Both the position numbers and the translations under genes were made by a program. Shown here piece by piece: positions 11,951 through 52,843 of a stretch of 64,000 nt of DNA (positions are counted from its first letter, which is position 1; every line of letters begins with the position of its first letter). Origin of the DNA: Streptomyces sp. NBC_01244 (lineage in GTDB: Bacteria; Actinomycetota; Actinomycetes; Streptomycetales; Streptomycetaceae). The notes below the pieces were generated by a model. It ran no database searches. It worked only from the letters and a program-made list of their open reading frames with translations, and was not told the DNA's origin. The stretch covers positions 8,184,001 to 8,248,000 of the forward strand of contig NZ_CP108488.1 of the NCBI RefSeq assembly GCF_035987325.1, read 5' to 3'.

Positions 11951-12188
11951 GCATTGCTTCGGGCCGACGTCCTCCAGCTCCTTTCGGCGAGTCGTCGAGG
12001 CGGATGGTGAGCTTCAGTGAGAGGCGGCTCGGGGCAGCATCGGGCAGGATCTGGCCCCTGTTGTAGTGAATCTGGGGACCAGTTGGGGACCACACGGCGT
12101 ACGCGCCAGTGATCGGCCTGGGTGCTCACGCACGGCTCACGCCCTGAATTGGTCTGTCATGACATGACAATCCCGCCGAACCGCACTC

Positions 12189-12231
12189 CTGGGGGTCAAG
12201 GGGTCGCAGGTTCAAATCCTGTCGTCCCGAC
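12189..12231 (+). other. 3' fragment of tRNA-Pro(GGG), probable attachment-site scar
   Basis: Reading from the anticodon loop (CTGGGGG, anticodon GGG), the fragment gives the 3' anticodon strand TCAAG, a T-arm GCAGG-TTCAAAT-CCTGT and the 3' acceptor strand CGTCCCG with A73. The 5' acceptor strand, D-arm and 5' anticodon strand are absent upstream, so this is not a functional tRNA. tRNA 3' halves starting at the anticodon loop are the classic attL/attR cores left by tyrosine integrases. The intact tRNA-Pro should be elsewhere. No integrase lies beside it in this window. Confidence 0.8.
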
Positions 12232-24266: not shown

Positions 24267-25046
24267 GTGATGTTCCGAATACTCGGCGCGGTCGGTTATC
24301 AGCTGGATGGTCAATTCCACAGCATTCCGGGAGCGAGACAGCGGACACTTCTCGCGGCCCTGTTGGTGAGCGGTGGCCGGCCGGTGCCGGCGGAGCAGCT
24401 CTACACGGAGCTGTGGGGGGAAAGTCCGCCGCCGACGGCGAACAACTCTCTGCAAGCCCACATCTACCGGTTGCGCGGGACCCTCCAGAAGGTGGCGGGA
24501 ACGACCGCCCCACCCGCCCACCTGGTCACTCGGGCATCCGGGTACACCCTGGAGGTCGCGGCCGATCACCTCGACATGAACGTCTTCCGCGGGCGGATCG
24601 CGGAATCCCGGCGGGTCGTCGCCGACGACCCCCGGCGGGCCTACGCATTACTGGAAGAGGCGCTGGGGCTGTGGCGGGGCTCGCCCCTCCAGGACGTGCC
24701 CGCCGGGCCGATGTGCCAGAGCGTGGCCCTCCAGCTCGACGAGGAATACATGACGGCGCTGGAGGACAAGCTCTGGCTCGGAATCGGATGCGAGGATCCG
24801 TTCCACGTCATAGGGGAACTCAAGCGGATGAGTACCGTCCACCCTTGGCGGGAGCGGATCACCGAGATGCTGATGCTGGCCCTCTACCGCTGCGGACGGC
24901 AGGCCGAGGCCGTCGAGGCGTACAACAAGGCGCGCAGCCGGCTGGTGGAGGAGCTGGGCATGGAGCCGTCGGTCCAGCTCCGGCAGCGCTTCAGGGACAT
25001 CCTCAACCAGGACCCGTCGCTGCGTCAGCCCTTCCCGGTCTGCTGA
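24267..25046 (+). CDS. SARP (AfsR/DnrI-type) pathway activator
   Basis: 259 residues. N-terminal winged-helix OmpR-like domain (~1-95: LLAALLVSGGRPVPAEQLYTELW) followed by a bacterial transcriptional activation domain (~100-250) ending in the characteristic GMEPSVQLRQR. GTG 24267 is preferred (TAAGGAGA upstream); ATG 24270 is an alternative. Codon 128 is TTA (24648-24650), making expression bldA-dependent. It is the obvious activator for the five heptad-repeat promoters at 35668, 35915, 39921, 41824 and 52722. It converges with the seryl-tRNA synthetase gene. Confidence 0.93.
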   Translation: MMFRILGAVGYQLDGQFHSIPGARQRTLLAALLVSGGRPVPAEQLYTELWGESPPPTANNSLQAHIYRLRGTLQKVAGTTAPPAHLVTRASGYTLEVAADHLDMNVFRGRIAESRRVVADDPRRAYALLEEALGLWRGSPLQDVPAGPMCQSVALQLDEEYMTALEDKLWLGIGCEDPFHVIGELKRMSTVHPWRERITEMLMLALYRCGRQAEAVEAYNKARSRLVEELGMEPSVQLRQRFRDILNQDPSLRQPFPVC

Positions 25047-25048: not shown

Positions 25049-25099
25049 GGCATCGCGAGCGGCGATGGACGGGTGCCGTCCACTGCCGCTCACGATGCC
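25049..25099. terminator. Stem-loop between SARP and seryl-tRNA synthetase genes
   Basis: Arms 25049-25063 and 25085-25099 pair over 15 positions with one G-U wobble; an inner TGGAC/GTCCA stem extends it. It lies between the two convergent genes and overlaps the last codons of the synthetase, so it can terminate both transcripts. Confidence 0.7.
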
Positions 25100-26376
25100 G
25101 TACCGCCGCCGGGCAGCACGCGGCGGAACCCGGCGTACGGCACGAGCGCGGCCGGGAGCTCCACCGAACCGTCCTCGCGCAACCCCTGCTCCAGCAGCGC
25201 CGCGACCGTACGGCCGATCGGCAGGGCCGAGCCGTTGAGGGTGGCGGCGGGCGACCTGACGCCGTCGCGCGTCCGCACGCGGATCCCGGCCCGGCGCGCC
25301 TGGAAGGTGCCGCAGTCGGAGACCGAGGAGATCTCCCGGTAGGCGTCCGAACCCGGCAGCCACACCTCCATGTCGTAGGTCATGCGCGCGGAGAACCCGA
25401 GGTCACCGGCGGGCAGCAGCACGACCCGGTAGGAGAGCTCCAGCCTCCGCAGGCACTCCTCGGCATGCCCGAGCAGGACCTCCAGCTCGGCACGGGAGTC
25501 CTCCGGGCGGCAGATCCTGACCAGCTCCACCTTCTCGAACTGGTGCAGCCTCAGGATCCCCCGGGTGTCACGGCCGTACGAGCCCGCCTCGGCGCGGAAG
25601 CAAGGGGTGCGGGCCGTGACGGCGAGCGGCAGCCCCGCCGCGTCGATCGTCTGCCGGGCGAAGAGGTTGGTCAGAGGCACCTCGCCGGTCGGAATGAGCA
25701 TCAGCTCCCGGCCCCCGACCGAGGTGGCGAAGAGATCGTCCTCGAATTTCGGCAGTTGCCCCGTGCCCGTCATGGTCTCCCGGCTGACCAGGTAGGGCAC
25801 CGAGTACTCCGTGTACCCCTGGCCTTCCGTGTGCAGGTCCAGGAAGAAGTCGGCCAGCGCCCGTTCCAGCCGGGCTCCGGCGCCGCGGGCGACGCTGAAC
25901 CTGGCCCCCGACAGGCGGCCGGCCGCGGCGGCGTCCAGGATCCCCAGGGTCTCGCCGATCCTGGCGTGATGGCGTTCCGGACCGGCCGGCACGGGAGGCG
26001 GCCCGCCCCGGCGCACCTCCACCGTGTCGTCCCCGGTACGGCCGTCCGGCACGTCGTCGTCCGGCACGTTGGGGACGGTGAGCAGCCGGTCGCGCAGTTC
26101 CCGTTCGGCCGCCGAGACCGCCTCTTCGGCCTGCCGGACCGCGCCGCGCAGTTCCCGGGCCGCGTCGCGCTCGGCATCGGACGGTCCGCCGCCGGCGGAG
26201 CGGGCGGCCCGGGAGACCCGGTTCAGCTCGGCCCGCAGCCGGGTCACCCGGTCAGCGGCCTCGGTACGGCGCCGCTGGGCCTCCCGGAGCGGCGCGACCC
26301 GCAGCTCGTAGCCGCGGCGGGCGAGCGCGGCCGCCGTCCTCTGGTCCCGCTCGATCAGTTCTCGTACGTCGTGCAC
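25090..26376 (-). CDS. Cluster seryl-tRNA synthetase (VlmL-like)
   Basis: 428 residues, full-length class II SerRS: N-terminal coiled-coil tRNA-binding arm (~20-105), motif 2 around CFRAEAGSYGRDTRGILR and QFEKVE, motif 3 region NGSALPIGRTVAALLE. The serine-site segment EISSVSDCGTFQARR deviates from the usual SSxSNCxDFQ (N to D). It is the last gene of the 11-gene biosynthetic operon, not a housekeeping locus. In valanimycin biosynthesis the analogous VlmL supplies seryl-tRNA for transfer to an alkylhydroxylamine. I infer the same role, possibly with the tRNA-like gene at 35773 as a substrate. Confidence 0.93.
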   Translation of the reverse strand: MHDVRELIERDQRTAAALARRGYELRVAPLREAQRRRTEAADRVTRLRAELNRVSRAARSAGGGPSDAERDAARELRGAVRQAEEAVSAAERELRDRLLTVPNVPDDDVPDGRTGDDTVEVRRGGPPPVPAGPERHHARIGETLGILDAAAAGRLSGARFSVARGAGARLERALADFFLDLHTEGQGYTEYSVPYLVSRETMTGTGQLPKFEDDLFATSVGGRELMLIPTGEVPLTNLFARQTIDAAGLPLAVTARTPCFRAEAGSYGRDTRGILRLHQFEKVELVRICRPEDSRAELEVLLGHAEECLRRLELSYRVVLLPAGDLGFSARMTYDMEVWLPGSDAYREISSVSDCGTFQARRAGIRVRTRDGVRSPAATLNGSALPIGRTVAALLEQGLREDGSVELPAALVPYAGFRRVLPGGGTAS

Positions 26377-27917: not shown

Positions 27918-28928
27918 TCAGGCGGCCTTGACGTTCGGCCAGACCAGGGCGGCGGCGCCCCAGGCGAGACCTCCGCCGAAGGCGGTCATGAGGAGCCGGT
28001 GCCCTCCTACGAGGGAGCCGTCGGCCGCGGACTGGGCCAGCAGCAGGGGGATCGAGGCGGCACCGGTGTTGCCGACCCGCTCGATGTTGGACAGGGAGCG
28101 CTCCGCCGGCACACCGAGCTCCTCGGCCACCGCCGTGAGGATGCGGCCGTTGGCCTGGTGGGCGGCGAACCGGTCGACGTCGCCGATCTCCCAGCCCGCC
28201 GTCTCCAGGGCCGTGCGCGAGGCGGCGCTCATCCGCTCCACGGCGTGCCGGTACGTCTCGCGCCCCCGCATCCGGAAGTACTCCTCGCCCGGAGCGGGCG
28301 GGCGGCCGGAGGACCGCTGGCGTGAGCCGCCCGCCGGGACCTCGATCAGGTCGCTCAGCCGGCCGTCGCTGCCCAGGACCAGCGGCCCGACGGCCCCCGG
28401 TTCGGTAGCGTCACCGGAGCGCAGGACCACGGCTCCCGCGCCGTCGGCGAAGATGACCGCGGTCCCCCGGTCGGCCGGGTCGACGATGGTGGTGAAGGCG
28501 TCGGCGCCGATCAGTAGGACCCTGCGCACGGTCCCCGACACGATCAGCCCGGAGGCCGTGGCGAGGCCGTACAGGAATCCCGAGCACACGGCGGCGACGT
28601 CGAACGCGGCTGCGCCGTCGAGTCCCAGCCTGGCGGCCACTTCGGGTGCGGTGGCCGGGCAGGGCCGGTCCGGTGTGGTGGTGGCGAGCACCACCGCGTC
28701 CGGGGGCTCGCCACCCGCCGAGGCCAGGGCCAGCCCACCCGCCTCGACCGCGAGGTCGGAGGTGGCGGTGCCGGGCGAGATCACGTGCCGGGACGCGATG
28801 CCCGTCCGGCTGCGGATCCACTTGTCGGTGGTGTCCAGACGGCTCGTCAGGTCCTGGTTGGTGACCACGCCGGGCGGTACGTACCCGCCGATGCCGCAGA
28901 TCACCGCTGCCGGTGCGCCCGCTGTCAT
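27918..28928 (-). CDS. Beta-ketoacyl-ACP synthase III-type enzyme (FabH-like)
   Basis: 336 residues with the KAS III triad Cys (AAVCSGFLYGL), His (FAAHQANGR) and Asn (ERVGNTGAASIP). Its ATG overlaps the diiron oxygenase stop by ATGA (28925-28928). KAS III enzymes condense an acyl-CoA with malonyl-ACP; here it likely starts or ends chain building on the operon ACP. Elaiomycin-type azoxy compounds contain a serine carboxylate elongated by acetate, a reaction this enzyme could do. That is inference. Confidence 0.9.
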   Translation of the reverse strand: MTAGAPAAVICGIGGYVPPGVVTNQDLTSRLDTTDKWIRSRTGIASRHVISPGTATSDLAVEAGGLALASAGGEPPDAVVLATTTPDRPCPATAPEVAARLGLDGAAAFDVAAVCSGFLYGLATASGLIVSGTVRRVLLIGADAFTTIVDPADRGTAVIFADGAGAVVLRSGDATEPGAVGPLVLGSDGRLSDLIEVPAGGSRQRSSGRPPAPGEEYFRMRGRETYRHAVERMSAASRTALETAGWEIGDVDRFAAHQANGRILTAVAEELGVPAERSLSNIERVGNTGAASIPLLLAQSAADGSLVGGHRLLMTAFGGGLAWGAAALVWPNVKAA

Positions 28929-29944
28929 GCCGGCCGCCCCGGACCGCCGGTCAGTACGTCGACGGGCAGTTCCATGTAGGCCATGCGCGCCTCGGCCATC
29001 TCGTCGGTCCAGCGCTCCGCCATGGCGTAGCGCTGCTCGGCGGTGGTGTCGAGCATCCGTACGCCGGGCCAGATCTCGTAGTCCCCGATGAGGTCGGCGT
29101 GTTCCTTCATGCCTTCCTGGAACAGTTCCTCGCGGTGGATGACGAACTCGCGGTCGGGGATCTCGTCCCACAGCCTGACGCCCCGCCCGATGACGTCCAG
29201 CACCCGCGGCCGCTCCTCGGGGTGTTCCCGCAACCGGTCGCGCAGGATGGTGCTGGCGACGGTCAGATGGCGGATCTCGTCGATGGCCGTCCCCCGGGAG
29301 ATCTCCCCGGTCGCGGGCGACAGGGGGGTCCACTTGCGTTCGCTGAGTTCGGCCGCGGGGGCCAGGACCCCTTCGATGACGATGGCGAACACCGCGACAC
29401 CGCCGAGGAAGTCCCCCTCGTCCCGGATGACTTCGAGCGTGAAGTCCTCGACCGGCCGCAGTACCCTGCGCCGGTAGTCGGCCGCCATCTCGTCGATGTC
29501 CCGCAGCAGGGTCGCGGCCGGCCTGCCGAGCTCCACCAGGTGGTTGCGGAACACCCGGGAGTGCCGGGCCTCGTCGATCATCTGGGTGGCGTAGAACTCC
29601 ATCTCGGGGATGCCGGGCGCGAGGGCCACGTAGTGCCCGAGCAGCCGGGTGGCGATCTCCTCGGCGACGCTGCGGAAGCCGAACTCCAGGGTCAGCGCCT
29701 CGTTCAGCGGACCCGGCCGGGTCAGCAGCTCCGGCACCCCGGCGTCCTCGTGGTGTCCGGTCACCCCCCGGTCGCGCAGCGTGCCCTGGGCGACCGAGGT
29801 GATCCAGTACGCCAGGTCGCAGTCCTCGGGCCCGAGCGTGAGCTTCATGGCGCCGTCGAGCAGGCCCGGCGCGGTGTCCCAGTCGGCCTCGGGGGCCGTG
29901 ACCCGGTTCGCGCCGGCCGTCCGGTCGCGCGTGGTGTCGGTCAT
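28925..29944 (-). CDS. Diiron oxygenase for azoxy formation (VlmB-like)
   Basis: 339 residues, all-helical ferritin-like fold. Metal ligands are readable: E95/E96 in helix 1, E125-ARH128 (DEARH), E191, and E223-IRH226 (DEIRH). The two ExxH-type repeats define a carboxylate-bridged diiron site as in the AurF/VlmB group. In valanimycin-type pathways VlmB is implicated in oxidising the N-N intermediate to the azoxy group. It lies between flavin reductase and KAS III with ATGA overlaps on both sides. Assignment rests on motifs plus the complete set of vlm-like neighbours. Confidence 0.85.
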   Translation of the reverse strand: MTDTTRDRTAGANRVTAPEADWDTAPGLLDGAMKLTLGPEDCDLAYWITSVAQGTLRDRGVTGHHEDAGVPELLTRPGPLNEALTLEFGFRSVAEEIATRLLGHYVALAPGIPEMEFYATQMIDEARHSRVFRNHLVELGRPAATLLRDIDEMAADYRRRVLRPVEDFTLEVIRDEGDFLGGVAVFAIVIEGVLAPAAELSERKWTPLSPATGEISRGTAIDEIRHLTVASTILRDRLREHPEERPRVLDVIGRGVRLWDEIPDREFVIHREELFQEGMKEHADLIGDYEIWPGVRMLDTTAEQRYAMAERWTDEMAEARMAYMELPVDVLTGGPGRPA

Positions 29945-30489
29945 CCGGCTTCCTCCTCGATGTGGGGTTGGGGTATGCCGCCCGGGCCGGTCTGCGGGTG
30001 CAGCGCGCCGGCGACGAGTCCGCCCCCGTAGCTCAGCAGCGGGTCGCCGGCGCCGCTGTCCACCCGGACGACCTGCCCGAGCAGCACCTCGTGGTCGCCG
30101 ACGACGTAACTCGCCGAGAGCCGGCAGGCGTAGTGCGCGAGCGCACCGTCGAGCAGGGGCGCCGCGGTGTACGGATCGGGGTGCCAGTCGACGGCGGCGA
30201 ACTGCTCGACGCCGTCCGGGCGGGCGCTGGAAGCGAACCAGCGGGCGATGGAACTCTGGGACGCACCCAGTACGTTGACGGCGAACCGCCCTTCGGCGGA
30301 GGCCAGCCGGGACAGCACCGAACCGGCCCGCAGCGCCGTACCGACGAGCAGCGGGCGGTGCGAGACCCGGGTCAGAGTGCTGACCGTGGTGCCGTGCGTA
30401 CGCCCCTGGTGCCGCACGGTGAGCACCGCCACCGGTGCGGCCAACTGGTCGATCAGCAGCCGGGCCGGTGCCTTCGCCGAGGACCTCAT
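29941..30489 (-). CDS. Flavin reductase (VlmR-like)
   Basis: 182 residues from ATG 30489. The open frame continues upstream, but the ATGA overlap with the membrane-protein stop fixes this start. Flavin-reductase-like split-barrel: early GTTVSTLTRVSHRPLL flavin loop, then FAVNVLGASQSSIARWFA and the HYACRLSASYVVGDHEVLLG strand typical of HpaC-type NAD(P)H:FMN/FAD reductases. It should supply reduced flavin to the acyl-CoA-dehydrogenase-fold N-hydroxylase of this operon, as VlmR does for VlmH. Confidence 0.9.
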   Translation of the reverse strand: MRSSAKAPARLLIDQLAAPVAVLTVRHQGRTHGTTVSTLTRVSHRPLLVGTALRAGSVLSRLASAEGRFAVNVLGASQSSIARWFASSARPDGVEQFAAVDWHPDPYTAAPLLDGALAHYACRLSASYVVGDHEVLLGQVVRVDSGAGDPLLSYGGGLVAGALHPQTGPGGIPQPHIEEEAG

Positions 30490-31007
30490 CGGGCCGCTCC
30501 GGCCGACTGCGGGGCCACGTGGCCGACGGGGGTGGGCTCGGTGGCGTGCCCGACGGGCTTGGGGTGGGCGAGTCCGAGATCGTCCAGCAGTCGCAGGTAG
30601 CCCGTCTGCCGGACCGGTTCGAAGGGCAGCGCGAACGACTTCATGAAGTTGCCGAACAGTCCCCGGTCGCCGAAGAGATGGAACGGCAGCACGAGCAGGG
30701 CCCACTCGGGCTTCACCAGCCAGCACCACAGCGCGGCGACCGCGCCCTGGGTGATCATGCTGTGCATCACGTTGTAGAGCACGTAGTACGTCTTGGCGAT
30801 GGGCCGGCCGCCGCTGCGCCGGAACGCGATGGCGCCGGGCAGGTAGCCGATCAGGTCGATGTAGAGGAACAGCGCGATGGCCGGCAGCCACCGGATCTCG
30901 CCGAAGTGAGCGATGATCAGCCCGGTCGACACGGCCAGCCCGACCAGATACTCGGCGCGGTGGAGGCTGAAGGTCCTGGGCGTTTCGAAGGGGTTGGCCT
31001 GGTCCAT
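30486..31007 (-). CDS. Small integral membrane protein (VlmO-like)
   Basis: 173 residues with about four membrane helices (LVGLAVSTGLIIAHF, LPAIALFLYIDLIGYL, a central helix around MITQGAVAALWCWLV, and a following LLVLPFHLF). Conserved-looking polar residues (H, R, Y in HFGE, KTYYVLYNVMHS) could be catalytic. The position in the flavin reductase/diiron block matches VlmO of the valanimycin set, a membrane protein implicated in N-N bond formation from O-seryl hydroxylamine. AGGAG precedes ATG 31007. Identity is based on context and topology, so moderate. Confidence 0.75.
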   Translation of the reverse strand: MDQANPFETPRTFSLHRAEYLVGLAVSTGLIIAHFGEIRWLPAIALFLYIDLIGYLPGAIAFRRSGGRPIAKTYYVLYNVMHSMITQGAVAALWCWLVKPEWALLVLPFHLFGDRGLFGNFMKSFALPFEPVRQTGYLRLLDDLGLAHPKPVGHATEPTPVGHVAPQSAGAAR

Positions 31008-31558: not shown

Positions 31559-32842
31559 TTACCGCCTTCCGGGCAGGGTGGCCGACCCGCTGATCAGGGC
31601 GCGGGTGGCTTTGTCGAAGGAGTCGAGGAGCACGTCGGCTTCCTGGTCGGTGAGGGTCGCGGGAGGCGTGAACCGCACCACCGAACTGCCGTTCATCGAG
31701 TGGTTCGCCACCACTCCGTGGTTGAACAGTTCGATGAGCAGCTCGCCCGCCAGGCCCGCCTCGGTCAGCTCGACACCGATGAGCAGCCCCTGACCGCGTA
31801 CGTCGACGAGCAGGTCGGGAATGTTGCGGCGGGCGATCTCGGCGATGCGCGGCAGCAGTACCGCCCCGAGGTCGCCGGCGCGGGAGACCAGCCGGCCGTC
31901 CCGCATGGCCTGGATCGAGCCCTGGACGGCGGCCATCAGCAGCGGCTGTCCGGAGAACGTGGCGGTGTGGACGTAGGGGTCTTTGTCGAAGGGCCGGAAC
32001 GCCTCCCGGGTCGCGACGGCGGCCGAGACCGGGACCACTCCGCCGCCGAGCGCCTTGCCCGCCAGCAGGACGTCGGGGACGACGCCCTCGATGTCGGCGC
32101 CCCACCATTCGCCGAGGCGGCCGAAGCCGGACTGCACCTCGTCGAGGATGAGGAATCCGTCGTACTCGCGCACGAGTTCCTCGACCCGCTTGAGGTATCC
32201 CTTGGGCGGGATGATCACGCCGCCCTCGCCCTGGACGGGCTCCAGGATCACGCACACCTCGCCGGGGTGTGCGGCGAGCTCCGCCTCCAGGGCGTCGGCG
32301 TCCCCGTACGGGATGTGCCGGACGTCGGGAAGGAGCGGGCGGAAGGGCCGCTGGTAGACCTCCTTCGCCGTGGCCGAGAGGGCCCCGAGGGTCTTGCCGT
32401 GGTAGCCGCCGTTCATCGAGACGGTGCGCTTGCGGCCGTTGGCCCGCGCCAGCTTGAGTCCCGTCTCCACGGCCTCGGCGCCCGACAGGGCGAAGTGCAC
32501 CCTGTCCAGGCCCGGAGGCATCACCGAGACGAGGGCCTCGGCGGCCAGCGCGACGGTCGGCTCCAGCAGGATGCGGGTGGCGACGGGGTGCGTGCGCAGC
32601 TGCCGTTCGACCGCCTCCATGACGACGGGGTGCCGGGCTCCCATGATGAAGACCCCGTACCCGCCCGCGTTCAGGAAGCGCGCCCCGTCGCTGGTGGTGA
32701 TCCACGCTCCCTCCGACGCCATCTCCATGTGAGTGCCGAAGAGCTCTGCGAGGGTGGCCCGGCCCTTGCTCAGATGGGCCCGGTACAGGTCGAGTATCTG
32801 CTGTTCGGTATGGGTCCCGGGGACCTGGTGGGTGGTGGTCAT
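31559..32842 (-). CDS. PLP-dependent class III aminotransferase
   Basis: 427 residues. Motifs: cofactor-phosphate loop GAEAVETGLKLAR, LDEVQSGFGR aspartate, and PLP lysine in LLAGKALGGG. Related to ornithine/acetylornithine-type omega-aminotransferases. Beside an aldehyde-dehydrogenase-family enzyme it probably converts a fatty or polyketide aldehyde to a primary amine, substituting for the amino-acid decarboxylase (VlmD) of valanimycin. ATGA overlap with the upstream N-hydroxylase gene indicates coupling. Confidence 0.9.
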   Translation of the reverse strand: MTTTHQVPGTHTEQQILDLYRAHLSKGRATLAELFGTHMEMASEGAWITTSDGARFLNAGGYGVFIMGARHPVVMEAVERQLRTHPVATRILLEPTVALAAEALVSVMPPGLDRVHFALSGAEAVETGLKLARANGRKRTVSMNGGYHGKTLGALSATAKEVYQRPFRPLLPDVRHIPYGDADALEAELAAHPGEVCVILEPVQGEGGVIIPPKGYLKRVEELVREYDGFLILDEVQSGFGRLGEWWGADIEGVVPDVLLAGKALGGGVVPVSAAVATREAFRPFDKDPYVHTATFSGQPLLMAAVQGSIQAMRDGRLVSRAGDLGAVLLPRIAEIARRNIPDLLVDVRGQGLLIGVELTEAGLAGELLIELFNHGVVANHSMNGSSVVRFTPPATLTDQEADVLLDSFDKATRALISGSATLPGRR

Positions 32843-34014
32843 GACAGCTCCAGGGGGTTGCCCGCGAACCAGGCCACCAGGGGTTCGGCGGCCGCGCCGC
32901 GGCCGGGCGGATGGAAGGCGAGCGCGCGCACGGCGGTGGCCAGCCGGGCGTGGTCGCCGGAGCGGATGAAGTCGAGGCCTCCGAGCAGCTCCACGGCCTG
33001 GTCCACCGCCTGGGCGAGGAGGTCCTGCACGGTGTACCGGGCCACCAGCACCTGGGCGACGGCCTCTTCACCGCCGAGCCCGGCGAGGACCGCCCGCGCG
33101 GCGCCCTCCAGCAGGGCGAAGGCCGAGTCGATCCGGATGACGAGGGCGGCACGTTCCCCGGCGGTACCCCGCTCCCGGACCAGCACCTGCTCGGCCAGCG
33201 TGCTCGCCGCGCCGACGTAGGCGGCCGAGATCAGCAGCTCGAACCAGACGAAGGCGACCGTCTGCAGGTCGTCGAGCCGGCCGGGGTCCTCGGCGGTGGT
33301 CCGGACGACCAGTTCCTCGGGGACGAAGACGTCGGTCAGACGGACCTCGTCGCTCTCGGCGGCGGCGAGGACGTCGTTGCCCCAGAACGGGTGCACGGAC
33401 AGCCCCCGCGTGGGCAGGTTCACCATGGCCAGGGCCAGTTCGGGGGCGCCGTCGGGACCGGGCACCGCGATGCTGGCGGTGAGCAGGTCCATGGAACGGG
33501 ACAGGCTGCACGGCTTCTTCGTGCCGTTGAGCAGGTAGCCGCCCTCGGTGGGGGTCGCAGCCACCGCCGGAACGAGGATGTTCTGCTGGGTACGTCCCTC
33601 CGCCCAGCCGGACGCCATCAGCCGGCGCCCCGGCGCGATGCCGGAGAGCGTCTCCAGCTGGGCGGGGGTGAGCCTGCCGGGATCGGCGGCGAGGGCGTAC
33701 AGCGTCGCGGCGGTGAAGTGGTGCATGGCCGCCACGGCGGCGGTGGAGGGCGAGAGCGAGCCGAGGGCGCGCTGGACCCGGATGGCGTCGAGCGCGTCCG
33801 CGCCGTGGCCTCCGTACTCCCGCGGGATCAGCAGTCCGGCCCCGTCGTGGTTGCGGAACAGGTCGATGACCGGGCTGCCGGGGGCCTCGCGCCGCTCGTA
33901 CGGGATGTCTCCCAGGGCCTTGAGCAGGCCGGGGTGGTGGTGGTCGCAGAGATCTCGTGCGGTGGAGAGGGAACGCATGGCGGTCCTTGTGGGTGTGGGT
34001 ACGGGGACGGTCAT
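32839..34014 (-). CDS. Acyl-CoA-dehydrogenase-fold flavin N-hydroxylase (VlmH-like)
   Basis: 391 residues with ACAD domains: helical N-terminus (IPREYGGHGADAL), beta middle (LLNGTKKPCSLSRSMDLL, ASGWAEGRTQQN) and C-terminal four-helix bundle (AVELLGGLDFIRSG). The usual ACAD catalytic glutamate is not evident. VlmH, the isobutylamine N-hydroxylase, belongs to this superfamily and works with a separate flavin reductase, which is encoded here too. Start ATG 34014 overlaps the upstream stop by ATGA; ATG 33978 (MRSL) is an alternative. An ordinary ACAD role is less likely given the context. Confidence 0.82.
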   Translation of the reverse strand: MTVPVPTPTRTAMRSLSTARDLCDHHHPGLLKALGDIPYERREAPGSPVIDLFRNHDGAGLLIPREYGGHGADALDAIRVQRALGSLSPSTAAVAAMHHFTAATLYALAADPGRLTPAQLETLSGIAPGRRLMASGWAEGRTQQNILVPAVAATPTEGGYLLNGTKKPCSLSRSMDLLTASIAVPGPDGAPELALAMVNLPTRGLSVHPFWGNDVLAAAESDEVRLTDVFVPEELVVRTTAEDPGRLDDLQTVAFVWFELLISAAYVGAASTLAEQVLVRERGTAGERAALVIRIDSAFALLEGAARAVLAGLGGEEAVAQVLVARYTVQDLLAQAVDQAVELLGGLDFIRSGDHARLATAVRALAFHPPGRGAAAEPLVAWFAGNPLELS

Positions 34015-35609
34015 GAGCCGAAGACCGCTTCGTGCGGACTGATGCCGCGGGCGATGCTGACGCCCTGGAGGTGCGAGGTCTTGAGCATCGGGTAGTTCGC
34101 CTCGCCGAAGGCTCCGCCGGTGAGGCCGGTGCCACCGTGGCTCGGCAGATAGGGCAGGAACCCGATGTGCGAGTCGTTGACCTTCAGCAGTCCGCCGTTG
34201 GAGATCCGGCCGACGAAGGTGTCGATCACCCTCTCCGACCCGGCCCACAGCGAGTTGCGCAGGCCGTACCGGTTGCTGTTGACGAAGTCGATGAAGCGGT
34301 CGAGCAGTTCGCCGTCGCCGGCGGGTTCGGCGACCACGATCGGCAGCAGCGGGAAGAACGTCTCCTGGTCCACCACGTCGTACGCGCGCGCCCCGGCCAG
34401 CCCGTTCACCCGCACCACGGTCGGCTGGAGGAAGACGCCGGTCTGCGACGGCGTGCCGTCCAGCTCCGTGCGCAGGCCTCCGATCACCAGCTCGGCACCC
34501 AGGTCCGTGGCCTGCTTGAGCAGCCCGAAGAACCGCTCGCTGCGGCGTACGGGGGACAGCAGGACCTCGGGGTCCTGCGGGTACCCGGGGCGGATCGCGG
34601 CGACCTGGGCCCGGACCTCCTTGAACAGCCGTTCCGCGACCGCGGGGTGGACGACGACGCAATTCGGCACCATGCAGATCTGACCGGAGCCGTAGAACGC
34701 CTCGGCGATGGCCTCCGCCGCCTTCTCCACGTCGGCGTCGCGCCACACCACGATGGTGTCGTTGCCCGCCAGCTCCAGAATGGGCTTCTTGCCGGCCGCG
34801 ACGCAGTCCCGTTCGAAGAGCAGGCCCTCCTTGCTGCCGCCGATGTAGAAGATGTCGTCGATCAGCGGATCGGCGAGCCAGCGGTCCAGGGTCTGCTTGG
34901 GATTGCCGCAGATGGCGTTGAGTACGCCGGGAGGCGCACCGAGTTCGTCGAGCAGCGGCCCCACCACGTCGCGCAACAGCCACATCGTGCTGAGCGCGAT
35001 CGAGCGCGGCGCCCTGACCACGACGGCGTTGCCCGCCATCAGGGCCAGTACGGCCAGTGCGGCGCTCGGAGCCGGGGCGTTCTGAGGCGGATGGAAACCG
35101 ACGACTCCGTCCGGGCGGCGGCGCACGATCAGCCGGCGGCCGCCGTGGCTGAACTCGGTGTGCATCTGTTCGCGGTACCAGCCCAGGCTCTCCTCGCTGT
35201 ACACCTGGAAGAGGCAGCTGAGCTCCCACCGCGCAAGTTTGACGGGGTGCCCCTCGGCCACCAGCATGTCGACGAACTCGTCCTGGCGGGCCAGCAGTTC
35301 CTCACGGAAGCGGGTGCCGAGCCGCATCCGCCGCTCCAGCGGCACGGCGGCCCAGCCGGGTGCCGCGGCGGCCGCGGCCTCGGTCGCCAGGTCGATGGCG
35401 TCTGAAGAGGCGATGGCGCAGCGGCCGATGACGTAGGGGTGCTGCGCGGCCTCGGACGTCGGGTCGCGCTCCAGGTCCCGCTTCAGACCGACACTGGTGA
35501 ACACGTCCTCGAGCAGGGACCGGGAGCTGACCGTGTACACCCAGCCGTCGCCCTCCACGTCCTTCCCGGCGATGTAGAGCTTGTAGCTGAGCAGTGGCTT
35601 GTCGCGCAT
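34011..35609 (-). CDS. Aldehyde dehydrogenase-family enzyme, probable acyl-thioester reductase
   Basis: 532 residues from ATG 35609 (GGGGAGG seven bases upstream; GTG 35615 also possible). ALDH fold with general-base-type glutamate region LELAGND, nucleophile cysteine in GSGQICMVPN, and C-terminal GGTGLTGGAFGE. The ~60-residue N-terminal extension is unusual for simple ALDHs. Its place before an aminotransferase suggests it works reductively, turning an acyl-ACP or acyl-CoA into the aldehyde to be aminated. Oxidation of an aldehyde is the alternative. It is the first gene of the 11-gene operon and follows a SARP-type promoter (35652-35696). Confidence 0.85.
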   Translation of the reverse strand: MRDKPLLSYKLYIAGKDVEGDGWVYTVSSRSLLEDVFTSVGLKRDLERDPTSEAAQHPYVIGRCAIASSDAIDLATEAAAAAAPGWAAVPLERRMRLGTRFREELLARQDEFVDMLVAEGHPVKLARWELSCLFQVYSEESLGWYREQMHTEFSHGGRRLIVRRRPDGVVGFHPPQNAPAPSAALAVLALMAGNAVVVRAPRSIALSTMWLLRDVVGPLLDELGAPPGVLNAICGNPKQTLDRWLADPLIDDIFYIGGSKEGLLFERDCVAAGKKPILELAGNDTIVVWRDADVEKAAEAIAEAFYGSGQICMVPNCVVVHPAVAERLFKEVRAQVAAIRPGYPQDPEVLLSPVRRSERFFGLLKQATDLGAELVIGGLRTELDGTPSQTGVFLQPTVVRVNGLAGARAYDVVDQETFFPLLPIVVAEPAGDGELLDRFIDFVNSNRYGLRNSLWAGSERVIDTFVGRISNGGLLKVNDSHIGFLPYLPSHGGTGLTGGAFGEANYPMLKTSHLQGVSIARGISPHEAVFGS

Positions 35610-35651
35610 CCTCACGCCTCCCCGAATTCACGCTCCGCACGGAACGGTTCG

Positions 35652-35696
35652 ATGCTTACAGCCACACCTGACCGACCGCTGATGAGCGACTGACTC
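35652..35696 (-). promoter_or_regulatory. SARP-type promoter of the main biosynthetic operon
   Basis: On the plus strand CTGA begins at 35668, 35679 and 35690, an exact 11-bp period. On the coding strand these are three TCAG-ending heptads with 4-bp spacers. Ten nucleotides after the last heptad is a -10-like AAGCAT (plus 35652-35657), giving a start near 35645 and a ~35-nt leader to the ALDH ATG. Geometry is identical at four other promoters of this cluster. Confidence 0.75.
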
Positions 35697-35718: not shown

Positions 35719-35751
35719 ACGGCCGGCCGCCCTCCCGGGGCAACCGGCCGT
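35719..35751 (-). terminator. Terminator of the tRNA-like gene
   Basis: Arms ACGGCCGG (35719-35726) and CCGGCCGT (35744-35751) flank a GC-rich loop. On the minus strand the stem is followed by TCTTTCGTT. It begins 22 bp after the tRNA-like 3' end and precedes the SARP promoter of the ALDH operon, so the tRNA-like gene has its own promoter and terminator. Confidence 0.65.
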
Positions 35752-35772
35752 ACTCAATGCGTTCACCATGGG

Positions 35773-35859
35773 CGGAGAGGGCAGGATTCGAACCTGCGGA
35801 GGCCTGAGCCAGACCGGCGCGAGCGCCGGACCCCGATAAACCACTCCGGGCACCTCTCC
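35773..35859 (-). tRNA. tRNA-Ser-like gene with a non-decoding anticodon arm
   Basis: 87 nt on the minus strand. Acceptor GGAGAGG/CCTCTCC (7 perfect pairs), discriminator G73 (a SerRS identity base), TG at 8-9, D-arm CCCG/CGGG with the GG needed for the D-T loop contact, a T-arm GCAGG-TTCGAAT-CCTGC, and a ~15-nt extra arm, as in class II tRNAs. The anticodon arm is abnormal: CCGGCG pairs fully with CGCCGG around a CTCG tetraloop. No 5-bp/7-nt arrangement can be drawn and no serine anticodon sits after U33. Seryl-tRNA synthetase ignores the anticodon, so charging remains plausible while decoding does not. It lies between the VlmA-like gene and the main operon under its own SARP-type promoter. 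A decayed tRNA is the alternative. Confidence 0.8.
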
Positions 35860-35898: not shown

Positions 35899-35954
35899 AC
35901 ATTGCCAGGCCCACCTGATATCTCGCTTATGCGGCGCTGATACGGATCTGACGG
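35899..35954 (-). promoter_or_regulatory. SARP-type promoter of the tRNA-like gene
   Basis: Four repeat positions at 35915 (CTGA), 35926 (CTTA, one mismatch), 35937 (CTGA) and 35948 (CTGA) keep the exact 11-bp period. Ten nucleotides after the last heptad on the minus strand is CAATGT (plus 35899-35904), matching the spacing and the A2/T6 positions of the other cluster -10 elements. The expected start near 35892 leaves ~33 nt to the mature tRNA 5' end. The same region could also serve the divergent VlmA-like gene, for which no separate heptads are seen. Confidence 0.7.
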
Positions 35955-36044: not shown

Positions 36045-37043
36045 GTGACCATTTCCCCCGCTCTTGAAAATCCGGTGCTGAGTGCCGTCCAGCGGCACAC
36101 CCGGTCCGAAAATCCCAGTTCCTTTCTGGCCCTCAACCAGGGCAACGAGGTGTTCACCGCGCCCGGTCTGGACGGCCTCGTCGTCTACCGGCGGACCGGG
36201 CGCCATCTGGTGCAGTTCGGCGGCCCGTTCGCCGCCCCGGAGGCGTACGACGCCCTGCTCGAACGCTTCACCGCCTTCGCCCGTGAGCAGGATCTGGGCC
36301 TGGTGGGAGTGCAGTTGCAGCGGCAGGATGCCGTGGCGTACCGGCGACAGGGCTTCACGGTCAACCAGATCGGCGCCTCGTGGGCCGTTCACCTGCCCGA
36401 CTTCACCTTGCGCGGCACCCGCTTCATGCAGCTGCGCAACAAGATCTCCAGGGCCTTCCGCAACGGCCTGGAGGTGGAGGAGGTGGACTCCGGCCGGTGG
36501 GAGGAGGCACTGCACGACATCGACCGGGCGTGGCTGGGTTCCAAGGGAGAACACGCCCGTCCGCTGGAGTTCCTCGTCGGGGAGCTGGGCGGTCCGGCAC
36601 AGGAGCACCGCCGCCTCTTCCTCGGCACGATCGACGGCGCTGCCGTGGGATACATCTCCTACTCGCCGGTCTACGGCAGCCGGTCCGGCTGGATGCACGA
36701 CCTGAGCCGGCGCATCCCCGGCGGTTCGCCCGGACTGATGGAAGCGATCAACTCCCGGGCGATCGACACCTTCCGGGCGGAGGGGGTGGAGTGGCTGCAC
36801 TTCGGCTTCACCCCGTTCACCGGACTGGACCCGTCGCACGAGGTGCCGGGGTACAGCCCGGCGTTCCAGTGGCTGATGCACTTCCTGTGGGACCACGGAG
36901 AGGCCTTGTACCCGGCCAGGACCCAGCTGTCCTACAAGGAGAAATGGGCTCCGGAGGAGCTGATCCCCGAGTACGTGGCCTTCGACGGGCCGGCCTCACC
37001 AGCCGGTTTCGCCCATGTCTTCCGCGCCTGCAAGGCGTTCTGA
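36045..37043 (+). CDS. Seryl-tRNA:alkylhydroxylamine seryltransferase (VlmA-like, DUF2156/MprF-type)
   Basis: 332 residues from GTG 36045 (CAGGGAG six bases upstream). Two GNAT-like lobes as in the C-terminal aminoacyl-PG synthase domain of MprF: GLDGLVVYRRTGRHLVQFGGPF in lobe 1, LRNKISRAFRNGLEVEEVD between, and the LFLGTIDGAAVGYISY and LSYKEKW segments typical of aminoacyl-tRNA transferases. No membrane flippase domain is present, unlike MprF. VlmA of valanimycin transfers serine from seryl-tRNA to isobutylhydroxylamine; this gene should do the equivalent. It is transcribed away from the tRNA-like gene, 185 bp apart. Confidence 0.87.
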   Translation: MTISPALENPVLSAVQRHTRSENPSSFLALNQGNEVFTAPGLDGLVVYRRTGRHLVQFGGPFAAPEAYDALLERFTAFAREQDLGLVGVQLQRQDAVAYRRQGFTVNQIGASWAVHLPDFTLRGTRFMQLRNKISRAFRNGLEVEEVDSGRWEEALHDIDRAWLGSKGEHARPLEFLVGELGGPAQEHRRLFLGTIDGAAVGYISYSPVYGSRSGWMHDLSRRIPGGSPGLMEAINSRAIDTFRAEGVEWLHFGFTPFTGLDPSHEVPGYSPAFQWLMHFLWDHGEALYPARTQLSYKEKWAPEELIPEYVAFDGPASPAGFAHVFRACKAF

Positions 37044-37348: not shown

Positions 37349-38866
37349 TCAGCCGCCGAGTGCCGTCGCGGTCAGCTTGGCGAGCTCCGCGGGGGACAGT
37401 TCCTCCAGATGGGCGCACAGGTCGGCGGCCTCGTCCGGGCCTCCGGCCCTGCGGAACTTCTCCCGGACCAGCCCCCAGTGCCGTGCCCGGGTCTCCTCTC
37501 CCGCCGCGCCGATCGGGATGTCTCGCCGTGCGGTGGCCGTACGGCCGTCCGCCCAGCGCACGGTGAGCCGGGAGCCCGTGTGCTTGGTCGACTGCTCGAA
37601 GGTCTCCTCGGGGGCACCCAGTACGGCCCGCTCGGCGGCGTCCCGCCCCGCGAACGCGGCCAGCCAGTCGACGGCGGGCGCCCCCGCCTGCCGCACCGCC
37701 GCTCCGAACGGCGCGGCACTCGCCAGCAAGTCGTCCGTCATCCCGGGATCCTCCACCAGCCGTACCCGGGACGACAGTTCCCAGCGGCGTGCCTCGTGCG
37801 TGGCGGGCGCCGTGAAGTCGGCCACGGACAGATCGCCGGTGAGCAGCGCCACGGCGACGGCGTACGGCACCGAGAGCGGCAGGATGCTCGGCGGGGTGTC
37901 CGGCCCGTTGCCGTGCCGGTCGGTCAGGTGCGCGACGTACGTCGTGTAGCGCGACGTCTCCACGACGATCTCCTCGATCCCCTCGGCGAAGTCGGCCCCC
38001 GGTGACCGGCGGCGCAGTTCCAGGGCGCAGTCCACGGCGGTGTCGACACCCGGCCCGCCGGGACGGACCTTGAAGGAGAGGGTGTCGGTGTGCCAGCGCC
38101 GGCCGAGCCCCTCGTTCACGGCCTGGGGGAGCGGCACCACCGCGAACCTGGCCAGAAAGCCGTCGGGGTGTTCCACCACGTCCGGGGCCGCGGTCAGTCC
38201 GGCCTCGGCCGCGTCGCAGGCGTCCATCGCCGCGCGTACCGGTGTCAGGGCGGTGAGGACCCGGGCGTCGCCGCTGAGGAAACCGTGCAGCAAGGTCCAC
38301 GGCGGCATGGTCATGGCCAGCCCGATCGCGTGGGTCCAGGTGTCGGCGCCGGCTCCGGTGCAGTGCAGCCTGCCGGTGACACCGCCGATCAGGCTGGTGT
38401 GCGCGGCGGTCTGGCCGCGAAAGGGGCCGAGCGTCGCCGCCGCGGTGACCCGGGCGGCGCACTCGTTGGCCGCCACGACGGCGGTCAGACAGGCGGCGCC
38501 GTCGAGCCCCTCGGAGCGGGCGTAGGCGAGTGGCGTCGCGACCGTCGAGTTCGACAAGTGCCCGGCGTACGCGGTGTCGTCCAGGTTGAGCCAGGACCCG
38601 AGGCCCGCCAAGACGGCGGCGGACCGGGCCGGCTCGGATTGCAGCGGCTCTCCGAAGGCGGACACCAGTCTGCGCCCGAGCGGGTGGGCGAGGCCGGTGC
38701 GTATGGCGGCGAGCTGCGACAGGACCTGGCTGCGCGCGAGCCCGACGACCCGGGAGGGGAGCTCCTCCAGGCGCAGTCCGGCGGCCCAGCCCGCCAGCTC
38801 GGCGGTTCGGGACGGCGGGGGTGCGGACTGCTGCGTCGGCCCCGGCCGGGGGCTGCGCCCGGTCAC
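37349..38866 (-). CDS. MmgE/PrpD-family dehydratase (VlmK-like)
   Basis: 505 residues from GTG 38866, which overlaps the kinase stop in GTGA. MmgE/PrpD fold: all-helical domain with LNLDDTAYAGHLSNSTVATPLA, family-typical GAACLTAVVAANECAARV, and the C-terminal lid domain. PrpD relatives dehydrate 2-methylcitrate, but VlmK uses the fold to eliminate phosphate from valanimycin hydrate phosphate after VlmJ phosphorylation. The adjacent kinase makes that role likely: forming an azoxy-alkene from the serine-derived CH2OH. Confidence 0.87.
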   Translation of the reverse strand: MTGRSPRPGPTQQSAPPPSRTAELAGWAAGLRLEELPSRVVGLARSQVLSQLAAIRTGLAHPLGRRLVSAFGEPLQSEPARSAAVLAGLGSWLNLDDTAYAGHLSNSTVATPLAYARSEGLDGAACLTAVVAANECAARVTAAATLGPFRGQTAAHTSLIGGVTGRLHCTGAGADTWTHAIGLAMTMPPWTLLHGFLSGDARVLTALTPVRAAMDACDAAEAGLTAAPDVVEHPDGFLARFAVVPLPQAVNEGLGRRWHTDTLSFKVRPGGPGVDTAVDCALELRRRSPGADFAEGIEEIVVETSRYTTYVAHLTDRHGNGPDTPPSILPLSVPYAVAVALLTGDLSVADFTAPATHEARRWELSSRVRLVEDPGMTDDLLASAAPFGAAVRQAGAPAVDWLAAFAGRDAAERAVLGAPEETFEQSTKHTGSRLTVRWADGRTATARRDIPIGAAGEETRARHWGLVREKFRRAGGPDEAADLCAHLEELSPAELAKLTATALGG

Positions 38867-39837
38867 CGGGTCCGCTCCGGCCGGGCGGGCGCGGGTTCGC
38901 ACAGCACGGGCAGCGCCCCGGGCAGGATGTCGATGGTCAGCCGCGAGCCCTCGTACGGCACCAGTTCGCCGTCGTGCTCGAAGCACAGCGGCAGGCCGTC
39001 CGTGCGCTCCACGACGATGCTGCGGCCGGTGCGGTAGACCACACCGGTCCGGTCGACGTGCTCCCCGGTCAGCAGCAGCGGGGGCACGTCGACGGGGTCG
39101 GTGCCGGCGCCCACCACACAGACGTCGAGGAGCCCGTCGTCCAGCACCGAATGCGGCAGCACCAGGTACTGCCAGGCACGGTGCCGCCCGCCGCCTATGT
39201 TGACCAGCACCGTTTCGCCCTTGTGTACGACGGCCCCGTCGATGGTCACCCGTCCGGGGTACGGGGTGAACACCGACGCCGCGCGTTCCAGTCCCGCCTG
39301 GAGCCGGGCCCGGCCCCGCAGCGGCACTTCCCGGGCGCTGCGCAGCACTTCGGCGGTGAGTCCGGCGCCGGCGCCGAGCACCACCAGCGCGTCGAGCTCC
39401 CGGACCCGCGCGAGGTCGAGCCGGCGCAGCGCCGCCGGAAGGGCGCCGAGCCCGGTGTCGACGGCTTCCTGCCAGGGGCGCGTGCCCCAGTGGGAGCGGT
39501 AACCGGAGTTGCCGGTGCCGCCCGGCACCACGAGCAACGCGGTGCGCTCGCCGGGCCCGGCGCCGGCCATCAGGCCGTTCACCACTTCGAGCACCGTCCC
39601 GTCGCCGCCGACGGCGACGACCACCCGGGTGCCGTCGCCGGTCCGGGTGCGGACGGCTTCCCGGGCCGCCCGCTCGGCGTCGCCGGGGCCGTCCGTGAGG
39701 GAGACGGTGACGCGGGTGTGGCGTGCGCACCGGTCGGCCACTTCCCGCACCAGTTCCCCGGTGACGGTGACGGTGCCGGCTGCCGGATTCGCGATGACCA
39801 GACAGTCCTCGGGATATGCCCCGGCGGTGTCCGCCAT
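38863..39837 (-). CDS. Diacylglycerol-kinase-like small-molecule kinase (VlmJ-like)
   Basis: 324 residues from ATG 39837 (GGAG seven bases upstream). DAGK catalytic domain: VGGDGTVLEVVNGLM nucleotide motif and VPGGTGNSGYR, with C-terminal beta domain (VLDDGLLDVCVVG). VlmJ, a DAGK homologue, phosphorylates valanimycin hydrate before elimination by VlmK; the GTGA-coupled PrpD gene here completes the same pair. Under a SARP-type promoter (39905-39949) and a TetR-type operator (39980-39996). Confidence 0.9.
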   Translation of the reverse strand: MADTAGAYPEDCLVIANPAAGTVTVTGELVREVADRCARHTRVTVSLTDGPGDAERAAREAVRTRTGDGTRVVVAVGGDGTVLEVVNGLMAGAGPGERTALLVVPGGTGNSGYRSHWGTRPWQEAVDTGLGALPAALRRLDLARVRELDALVVLGAGAGLTAEVLRSAREVPLRGRARLQAGLERAASVFTPYPGRVTIDGAVVHKGETVLVNIGGGRHRAWQYLVLPHSVLDDGLLDVCVVGAGTDPVDVPPLLLTGEHVDRTGVVYRTGRSIVVERTDGLPLCFEHDGELVPYEGSRLTIDILPGALPVLCEPAPARPERTR

Positions 39838-39904
39838 GGCTCCACTCCAATCGGTCGGATGACGAGGGGGTACGGCTCTGCGTCGGGATTCGCACGCGCG
39901 GGCC

Positions 39905-39949
39905 AGCATCTCCGGAGTGCCTGACCCGGGCCTGATGCGCGGCTGACAC
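39905..39949 (-). promoter_or_regulatory. SARP-type promoter of the kinase/dehydratase operon
   Basis: CTGA at 39921, 39932 and 39943 on the plus strand (heptads GTGTCAG, GCATCAG, GGGTCAG on the coding strand). The -10-like GATGCT is ten nucleotides downstream (plus 39905-39910). The predicted start near 39898 gives a ~60-nt leader. Confidence 0.75.
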
Positions 39950-39979
39950 CGCCGTTCCCGGTATTCCGTACACCCGTGC

Positions 39980-39996
39980 ATTACCCGGGAGGTAAT
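39980..39996. promoter_or_regulatory. TetR-type operator 2 (kinase/SnoaL intergenic region)
   Basis: ATTACCCGGGAGGTAAT, the most symmetric copy: ATTACC and GGTAAT around 5 nt. It lies upstream of both divergent genes, 31 bp beyond the SARP heptads of the kinase promoter and 103 bp before the SnoaL ATG. Confidence 0.7.
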
Positions 39997-40098
39997 CGAC
40001 ACACCACCCCGGCCGGTGAAACGCTCGACCCGTCGGGCATTGAGTACCGGGCACCGGGCACCCGTGACCGGCATCCCCTTTTCTCAGGAGGAATGACC

Positions 40099-41807: not shown

Positions 41808-41852
41808 ACTATCCCCGTACGCCCTGACGGGTGACTGACGGAGACCTGACGT
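41808..41852 (-). promoter_or_regulatory. SARP-type promoter of the P450 gene
   Basis: CTGA at 41824, 41835 and 41846 on the plus strand (coding-strand heptads ACGTCAG, CCGTCAG, CCGTCAG with 4-bp spacers). The -10-like GATAGT is exactly ten nucleotides downstream (plus 41808-41813). Start near 41801, leader ~30 nt. The heptads end 3 bp before the TetR stop codon. Confidence 0.78.
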
Positions 41853-52328: not shown

Positions 52329-52640
52329 TCACGCCTTCCTGACGTGGTCGGAGAGCTTCGCGCCGAGATGGCCCACGAGCTCGTCGATCGTCGGTTTGTT
52401 GAAGAGCACGGTCGCGTCGATCTCGACGCCCAGGAGGGCTTCCAGCCCCTTGCGCAGCTCCGCGAGGCGCAGGGAGGTCAGCCCCAGGTCGAAGTAGCTG
52501 CTGTCGAGAGCGAGTTCCTCGTCGTCGTCCATCAGCAGCACCCGCTTGAACCGGGTGACGACGAGGGCTTCCAAGGCATCGTGCATTTCCGCCCTGGGCA
52601 GCTCACGCAGCCGCAGGTCGACACTCAAGGGTTCCGGCAT
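52329..52640 (-). CDS. Free-standing acyl carrier protein preceding the PKS
   Basis: 103 residues from ATG 52640. Carrier-protein fold with attachment serine in DLGLTSLRLAEL and a ~25-residue N-terminal extension. It ends 1 bp before the PKS ATG and is first in the ACP-PKS-ligase-LLM-thioesterase operon. It may receive the acyl group made by the AMP-ligase and hand it to the KS as starter, or accept the product. A SARP-type promoter lies upstream. Confidence 0.88.
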   Translation of the reverse strand: MPEPLSVDLRLRELPRAEMHDALEALVVTRFKRVLLMDDDEELALDSSYFDLGLTSLRLAELRKGLEALLGVEIDATVLFNKPTIDELVGHLGAKLSDHVRKA

Positions 52641-52705
52641 GCCGGTCCACCCGCCTCTGGTGAGGGGCGAAACGTACCGCCCGGCGACATTCGGTATGCC
52701 TGGCG

Positions 52706-52750
52706 ATACAAACAGGGCACCCTGACGCTGCACTGACCGAGGGCTGATGA
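52706..52750 (-). promoter_or_regulatory. SARP-type promoter of the ACP-PKS operon
   Basis: CTGA at 52722, 52733 and 52744 on the plus strand (coding-strand heptads TCATCAG, CGGTCAG, GCGTCAG). The -10-like TTGTAT is ten nucleotides downstream (plus 52706-52711). Start near 52699 gives a ~59-nt leader. It marks the right border of the azoxy cluster. Confidence 0.75.
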
Positions 52751-52843
52751 CAGAGCCCACGGCCCCGCCGACCGCCCGTCGAACGGGTGTGGCGGGGAGG
52801 ACGCCCGTCGGGGTGGTCCGGGCGGGAGGTGGCCGGGACCGCG

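Follow-up and report, generated by a model that had tools for sequence, protein, structure and literature searches.

A tRNA-Ser-like gene with a closed hairpin in place of its anticodon arm accompanies VlmA-type transferase genes in Streptomyces and may act as a seryl carrier

The transferase VlmA moves serine from seryl-tRNA to a hydroxylamine (PMC9379638, PMC11705231). How Ser-tRNA is diverted into valanimycin was called unknown in a 2014 review's account of the pathway (PMC4052509), and a 2023 review, where it treats enzymes that use aminoacyl-tRNA in this way, describes their identity elements as still unknown (PMC9976931). A locus in Streptomyces sp. NBC_01244 raises the question of whether such a pathway could draw on a tRNA of its own. 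The window, that is, the whole stretch of 64,000 nucleotides analysed here, contains a tRNA-like gene beside a gene for a VlmA-like transferase, and a sequence-only reading had proposed that this tRNA presents no anticodon and channels serine into azoxy biosynthesis. That reading had the place of the gene right, but the gene has to be read on the minus strand:

35773..35859, minus strand: tRNA-Ser-like non-decoding gene with a short variable arm (ARAGORN, Rfam, folding, covariance model)
35814..35829, minus strand: hairpin replacing the anticodon arm, CCGGCG-CTCG-CGCCGG (folding; read from the sequence)
35719..35751, minus strand: terminator-like hairpin with a 14-bp stem, downstream of the tRNA gene

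ARAGORN finds a single tRNA gene in the window, at 35771-35859 on the minus strand, and reports it as 'tRNA-???' with a four-base 'anticodon', ctcg. The Rfam tRNA model aligns to 35773-35859 (minus) with 29.5 bits (E 3.2e-4 for 451 bases searched), barely above its gathering cut-off of 29 bits and with the anticodon region unaligned; applied to the whole window with fast filters, the same model lists nothing. In its main parts the gene is like a class II tRNA. It shares with tRNA-Ser a 7-bp acceptor (GGAGAGG/CCTCTCC, 7 of 7 pairs), a T-arm with TTCRANYC (5 of 5 pairs, here with TTCGAAT), a D-arm with GG in its loop (4 of 4 pairs for the consensus D-arm) and G at position 73, and by eye U8, A14, G15, G18, G19 and A21 seem to be retained as well. 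The claim that all arms are intact thus stands for acceptor, D-arm, T-arm and G73 but not for the extra arm, which is short here: GGC/GCC makes 3 bp, flanked on the outer side by a T.T mismatch, and most relatives have at least 4 pairs in this arm. Folding returns the acceptor, the T-arm and a 6-bp CCGGCG/CGCCGG stem with a CTCG loop (z -2.29; 7 of 200 shuffles fold as stably), which bears out the proposed 6-bp stem closed by CTCG where the anticodon loop belongs. In the free minimum of the window copy the D-arm pairing is shifted by one, the standard cloverleaf costing 2.3 kcal/mol more; of 39 distinct copies, 34 have the cloverleaf as their free minimum. A covariance model built from 35 relatives, with the window excluded, scores the window copy at 85.1 bits (E 3.7e-17). 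With the same model, the four tRNA-Ser of this genome reach 41-49 bits, tRNA-Tyr 50.7 and one tRNA-Leu 28.

The genes around the element form a cluster in which a VlmA-like gene starts at 36045, confirming the adjacency claimed earlier with 185 rather than 186 bases in between:

36045..37043, plus strand: VlmA-like aminoacyl-tRNA-dependent transferase, LPG_synthase_C (PF09924)
25090..26376, minus strand: cluster seryl-tRNA synthetase, VlmL-type, passing the TIGR00414 serS cut-off
24267..25046, plus strand: SARP transcriptional activator (BTAD and Trans_reg_C)
34011..35615, minus strand: aldehyde dehydrogenase family protein
32839..34010, minus strand: flavoenzyme of the acyl-CoA-dehydrogenase fold, VlmH-like candidate
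31559..32842, minus strand: class III aminotransferase
29941..30485, minus strand: flavin reductase, VlmR-like candidate (domain part of the ORF 29941-30891)
28925..29944, minus strand: weak match to AurF / R2-like oxidases, below the cut-off, VlmB-like candidate
38863..40074, minus strand: VlmJ-like protein of the lipid-kinase fold (DAGK_cat and YegS_C), ORF likely over-extended

The VlmA-like protein matches MprF-type domains, and it is by its PF09924 domain that the cluster has the VlmA-like transferase of a VlmA-type azoxy cluster as defined in section 8 of PMC9379638. Folds fitting a VlmH-like flavoenzyme and a VlmR-like reductase lie near it at 32839-34010 and 29941-30485, at the level of domains only; the former is the last part of an over-extended ORF, 32839-35229. 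The names VlmH, VlmR, VlmB and VlmJ are putative for the window genes and were given by domains and gene order. Apart from the cluster, the window contains at 12150-12230 (plus) a sequence similar to the T-arm and acceptor that make up the 3' half of a tRNA, which may be left over from an attachment site, and at 9844-11373 a phage tail sheath protein, perhaps belonging to a contractile tail-like cluster.

Seryl-tRNA synthetase (SerRS) reads the acceptor, G73 and the extra arm of its tRNA and not the anticodon. The window's genome has ordinary tRNA-Ser genes for GCT, TGA, GGA and CGA. In acceptor and position 73 the element is nearest to tRNA-Ser(GCT), with 11 of 15 positions in a range of 7-11 of 15 for the genome's tRNA-Ser, and in the T-arm to the genome's tRNA-Tyr (14 of 17, versus 11-12 of 17 for tRNA-Ser). 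As only the four tRNA-Ser among the eight class II tRNAs compared carry G73, Leu and Tyr having A73, we prefer the assignment to serine. An observation in passing concerns G000:C1:4043646-4043726 (L060), which ARAGORN calls tRNA-Pro(CGG) and which is unusually long for a proline tRNA.

The closed hairpin recurs in nearly all copies of the element. When the arm was folded with the other arms held fixed, 78 of 82 distinct copies had an apical loop of 3-5 nt (4 nt in 44 of the 82) and 80 of 82 a stem of 6-10 pairs; the canonical arm of 5 pairs and a 7-nt loop occurred in 0 of 82. The commonest loops are CACGC, GCAA, AGCA and TTCG. The exceptions in loop size are the two copies of L011, with an 8-nt loop on 4 pairs, L106, with a 6-nt loop, and L038, with a 7-nt loop in a fold that breaks the D-arm. 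The softest cases are L135 and L136, where a 7-nt loop on a 7-8-bp stem is read by eye. In the 78 of 82 copies that were usable, inner stems have 3.7 pairs on average, more than in any of 1000 shuffles (the inner part was cut by pattern, imperfectly in a few). In an alignment of 37 of 39 distinct copies, from which the aberrant L035 at 9532 and L038 at 9365 were excluded, the anticodon arm is hypervariable in sequence and length, and the acceptor and T-stem are invariant. Changes on both sides of a pair occur at 6 pairs in the D, anticodon and extra arms, as in 0 of 500 shuffles, and at 8 pairs in another copy set, both with a control that leaves relatedness in. A second alignment consists of 35 chosen copies, without the window, the same two aberrant copies and most second copies. 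Covariance modelling gives no ordinary tRNA-Ser anticodon arm in the Rfam alignment, in the folds or in any of the 82 copies, which rules out an ordinary tRNA-Ser. A pseudogene was rejected on the invariance of the core, the covariation and the operator described below.

Using the adjacent VlmA-like protein (36045-37043, plus) as query, we collected 42 loci from named genomes. In most of them ARAGORN calls a tRNA of odd or unassignable type shortly upstream of VlmA, and a script search gives 46 copies in 32 of 43 sources, one of these being the window and the other 31 coming from the 42 loci. The distance to the start of VlmA is usually no more than about 300 bases, and 9 of the 31 loci have 2-4 tandem copies; L034 has one copy, cut by the contig end. 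Some loci have no adjacent copy and carry copies elsewhere in the genome: eight each for L025 and L028, nine for L030 and 15 for L043. The genomes of L044 and L045 have two copies each, away from the VlmA locus. Counting the locus or the rest of the genome, the element accompanies 38 of 42 VlmA loci, so its predicted recurrence in related clusters was borne out. Three loci lack it (L042, L048 and L049, where a whole-genome search finds no element), and L023 starts with the first bases of one copy, its draft genome holding no full one. L030 and L043 have, where an adjacent copy would be expected, 25 bases that resemble the decayed remains of a T-arm and acceptor.

To place this association at the level of genomes, a covariance model (R1) was run over 392 genomes of the genus, with ten candidates per genome scored. 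Among the matches listed, of about 53 bits or more, scores have two peaks: 51 genomes reach at least 72 bits, and the others stay at or below 58.7 bits and are mostly ordinary class II tRNAs. A VlmA homologue, called at E 1e-20 or better, is present in all 51 element-positive genomes and in 2 of 29 taken from the other genomes of the genus; G300 and G168 have VlmA only as split matches of 35-44%, about 2.4 kb from the element. A further model (R2) run over 394 genomes of the family found the element in 43 (E at most 1e-10) and in 8 of 17 genera, the own genus included, and R1 found it in 5 of 394 genomes drawn from the class, one of which, G677, belongs to another family. Among further genomes, with positives from the genus and 8 other genera and negatives all from the own genus, VlmA occurs in 36 of 37 positives (counting G848, whose VlmA is in two pieces) versus 1 of 19 negatives; G823, with a weak element (E 3.0e-11), has no VlmA match. 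These counts are not independent trials, the genomes being related by descent and several of those drawn having supplied VlmA loci that trained the models. Among plasmid records, VlmA is present in 11 from Streptomyces. A DNA match to the element accompanies it in 10 of these, covering most of the element in 6 and just the final 32-34 bases in 4; two VlmA plasmids of other genera show no element match. In other words, the presence of the element tracks VlmA. Since six cases of VlmA have no element that we could find (L042, L048, L049, G001, G007 and G133), not every VlmA needs it.

The cluster SerRS, about 9.4 kb from the element, can be aligned with solved SerRS structures along the class II core and is encoded by a gene separate from that of the genome's housekeeping enzyme; identity between the two is 29% for the N-terminal arm and 39% for the core. 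The sequence-only reading had linked the element to this synthetase, and the enzyme is indeed there at 25090-26376; as a required partner it had to be given up. Scoring up to 33 candidates per genome and calling the VlmL type at 480 bits or more, we find such a SerRS in 29 of the 51 genomes of the genus that bear the element and none in the other 22, so the element's dependence on a cluster SerRS was dropped and the housekeeping SerRS would have to charge the element in those 22. Among the named loci, 34 of 42 have a VlmL-type SerRS (22 in the locus, 12 elsewhere in the genome), and 33 of these 34 have the element, the remaining one being L023; of the 8 without it, 5 have the element (L010, L012, L014, L046, L047) and 3 do not. 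The VlmL-type SerRS thus predicts the element, and not the reverse. The synthetase gene may also lie apart from the transferase: 115 bases from an element copy in the genomes of L044 and L045, less than 1 kb from the element in G677, where VlmA is about 25 kb off, and in G168 on a different contig from element and VlmA. At G373:C38:196-1717, the SerRS that lies 271 bases from an element copy shares just 40% identity with the cluster type, which suggests a separate recruitment of synthetases. The window's own genome has four SerRS matches in total, including two more SerRS-like genes about 5 kb apart (G000:C1:7179230-7186198; L004, L006).

The SARP gene (24267-25046) adjoins that of the SerRS, and repeats of the type bound by such activators precede the tRNA gene as well as pathway genes:

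35915..35952, minus strand: SARP-type operator of the tRNA gene, GTCAG/ATCAG/ATAAG/ATCAG with an 11-bp period, third unit degenerate
35899..35904, minus strand: putative -10-like hexamer CAATGT, 10 nt after the last repeat
35668..35694, minus strand: triple RTCAG operator upstream of the aldehyde dehydrogenase operon
39921..39947, minus strand: triple RTCAG operator before the start of the VlmJ-like domain, inside an over-extended ORF
41824..41850, minus strand: triple RTCAG operator upstream of a P450 gene (40562-41773)
52722..52748, minus strand: triple RTCAG operator at the head of an ACP/PKS operon (52329-52760, 46154-52327), slightly within the called ACP ORF

Classical SARP sites have 11-bp repeats, and for VlmI, the valanimycin SARP, three heptamers are described upstream of vlmA-vlmH and of vlmJ (PMC10972967). 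At an exact 11-nt period, RTCAG occurs in at least two units before 70 of 73 first-in-array copies and in three before 53 of 73, while two units arise by chance in 0.03% of mononucleotide shuffles. The window has 9 two-unit sites versus 0.37 expected. They are confined to the minus strand and group into five places, each at the head of a pathway unit or of the tRNA gene, with two of the five inside ORFs taken as over-extended. Both hallmarks of a SARP regulon are present: the cluster encodes a SARP, and direct repeats with an 11-bp period lie close to the putative promoter. A sigma-70 consensus scan lists no promoter for the tRNA gene; relatives show conserved bases after the repeats similar to those at CAATGT. 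The operator at 35915-35952 lies between the tRNA gene and VlmA and may serve both, and VlmA loci without an adjacent tRNA copy retain similar repeats. In a divergent VlmA-like clade (L135, L136) with its own SARP, TCTCAG replaces RTCAG at the 11-bp period, and in G300 and G168 three TCTCAG repeats at 11 bp accompany a nearby SARP of about 38% identity; in L135 and L136 this looks like co-evolution of activator and operator.

Some genomes carry 8-15 scattered cassettes of promoter plus tRNA. Searching with a 29-base pattern from the 5' part gave 15 copies in G395 (the genome of L043, S. griseofuscus), 13 in G327 and 12 in G365, and a reversed control pattern gave zero matches in 17 genomes. 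In 20 loci with 21 copies from G388, G365 and G003, the common unit is the element with about 75 bases upstream; the cassettes, of about 170 bp, keep the operator and the tRNA core and not the flanks, and their neighbours are unrelated. VlmA stands beside three of the 20 loci fetched. Scattered copies might have marked other aminoacyl-tRNA enzymes; beyond these three VlmA loci there was no common neighbour family, only groups of 2-4. The window's own genome has a single copy. In G395 and G365 the scattered copies lie mostly toward the chromosome ends, and in G395 also on a second replicon.

From these sequence comparisons, we consider it likely that the element, which is conserved with VlmA in clusters predicted to make azoxy compounds, is a dedicated, non-decoding seryl carrier that would feed the VlmA-like transferase outside translation. 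Points against this are the 3-bp extra arm of the window copy, since that arm is read by SerRS, and a tRNA-Tyr that resembles the element more than tRNA-Ser does in the T-arm and, slightly, in model score. The pathway SARP would switch the tRNA on together with the biosynthetic operons; a SerRS, of the VlmL type where present and otherwise the housekeeping enzyme, would charge it; and VlmA would move the serine from the element to the hydroxylamine, as reported for the valanimycin enzyme. Lacking an anticodon, the pool would be kept from the ribosome, and pathway and translation would not compete, while extra scattered cassettes would raise the dose. Taken together, this would probably amount to a private aminoacyl-tRNA economy, in which an anticodon-free seryl carrier, often its own synthetase, its own transferase, one pathway activator and cassettes in up to 15 copies per genome maintain a serine pool beyond the reach of the ribosome.

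The element could instead be a regulatory pseudo-tRNA, a sensor or a decoy (titrating, for example, SerRS, a nuclease or a modification enzyme) that donates no serine. An operator of the pathway's type would suit this role, and regulatory roles are described for pseudo-tRNAs of Bacillus cereus; however, an invariant acceptor with G73, T-arm and D-arm together with a compensated variable arm is the pattern of an aminoacylated RNA, up to 15 copies per genome fit a substrate better than a switch, and the partner genes encode an aminoacyl-tRNA transferase and often a SerRS, so we hold a regulatory role to be unlikely. It is distinctly improbable that the element is charged with an amino acid other than serine. 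Here the combination of G73 and a long variable arm is the signature of tRNA-Ser, the Leu and Tyr tRNAs compared having A73, and any synthetase adjacent to the element is a SerRS. This outweighs the agreement of only 7-11 of 15 acceptor positions with the own tRNA-Ser and a T-arm nearest to tRNA-Tyr. Azodyrecin is proposed to use alanyl-tRNA with a VlmA homologue (PMC9379638), but L048 and L049, without SerRS and SARP nearby, are also without the element.

A selfish or decaying tRNA-derived repeat, riding with the clusters by chance, might be suspected from the cassettes of about 170 bp amid unrelated neighbours in three genomes and from the possible remnants in L030 and L043. Yet the cassettes retain precisely operator and tRNA core and not flanks, VlmA accompanies the element in all 51 positive genomes of the first set and in 36 of the 37 of the second, and the core is invariant and covaries, all of which makes a chance passenger very improbable. 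That the element is a decoding tRNA with an unusual, for instance four-base, anticodon is barely conceivable: ARAGORN does give an anticodon-like string for each copy found, but these strings change from locus to locus and are not always the same even within a tandem array, and the loop has 3-5 nt in 78 of 82 copies and tops a stem that mostly has 6-10 pairs.

If the element is the seryl carrier that we favour, nature has a non-decoding one, functional RNA genes are being overlooked when clusters are annotated, and a cluster of this kind may perform poorly once moved into a host that lacks the tRNA gene. The questions of how serine is diverted and which identity elements are used both become testable with one small RNA. 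In the open-access literature we found no report of such an anticodon-less tRNA, and the known systems nearest to it differ in instructive ways. The staphylococcal tRNA-Gly of cell-wall synthesis is likewise dedicated to a non-ribosomal aminoacyl transferase; unlike the element, it does not serve secondary metabolism, and it keeps its anticodon arm and evades translation by other features. The Bacillus cereus tRNA-Other, or pseudo-tRNA, is also a tRNA-like gene outside the decoding set, but of another lineage and identity, and we know of no cluster partner enzymes for it. The tRNA-like domain of tmRNA is aminoacylated and has a tRNA acceptor and T-arm and no anticodon; it differs from the element in carrying alanine, acting on ribosomes and having an mRNA part. 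Allo-tRNAs and other non-canonical cloverleaves keep an anticodon and decode. Their unusual shapes, in some cases with a long variable arm, recall the element (PMC7609411); the word Streptomyces is absent from the main text of that paper. A further comparison is with the valanimycin system, made here through the domains and review descriptions of VlmA, VlmH, VlmL and VlmI: it too has a VlmA-type transferase acting on seryl-tRNA, an extra SerRS and a SARP with triple repeats (PMC4052509, PMC10972967, PMC9379638). These accounts name seryl-tRNA as the donor and mention no tRNA gene dedicated to it; how it is diverted from translation is called unknown there, and it is this question of PMC4052509 that the element, if it is a seryl carrier, would answer.
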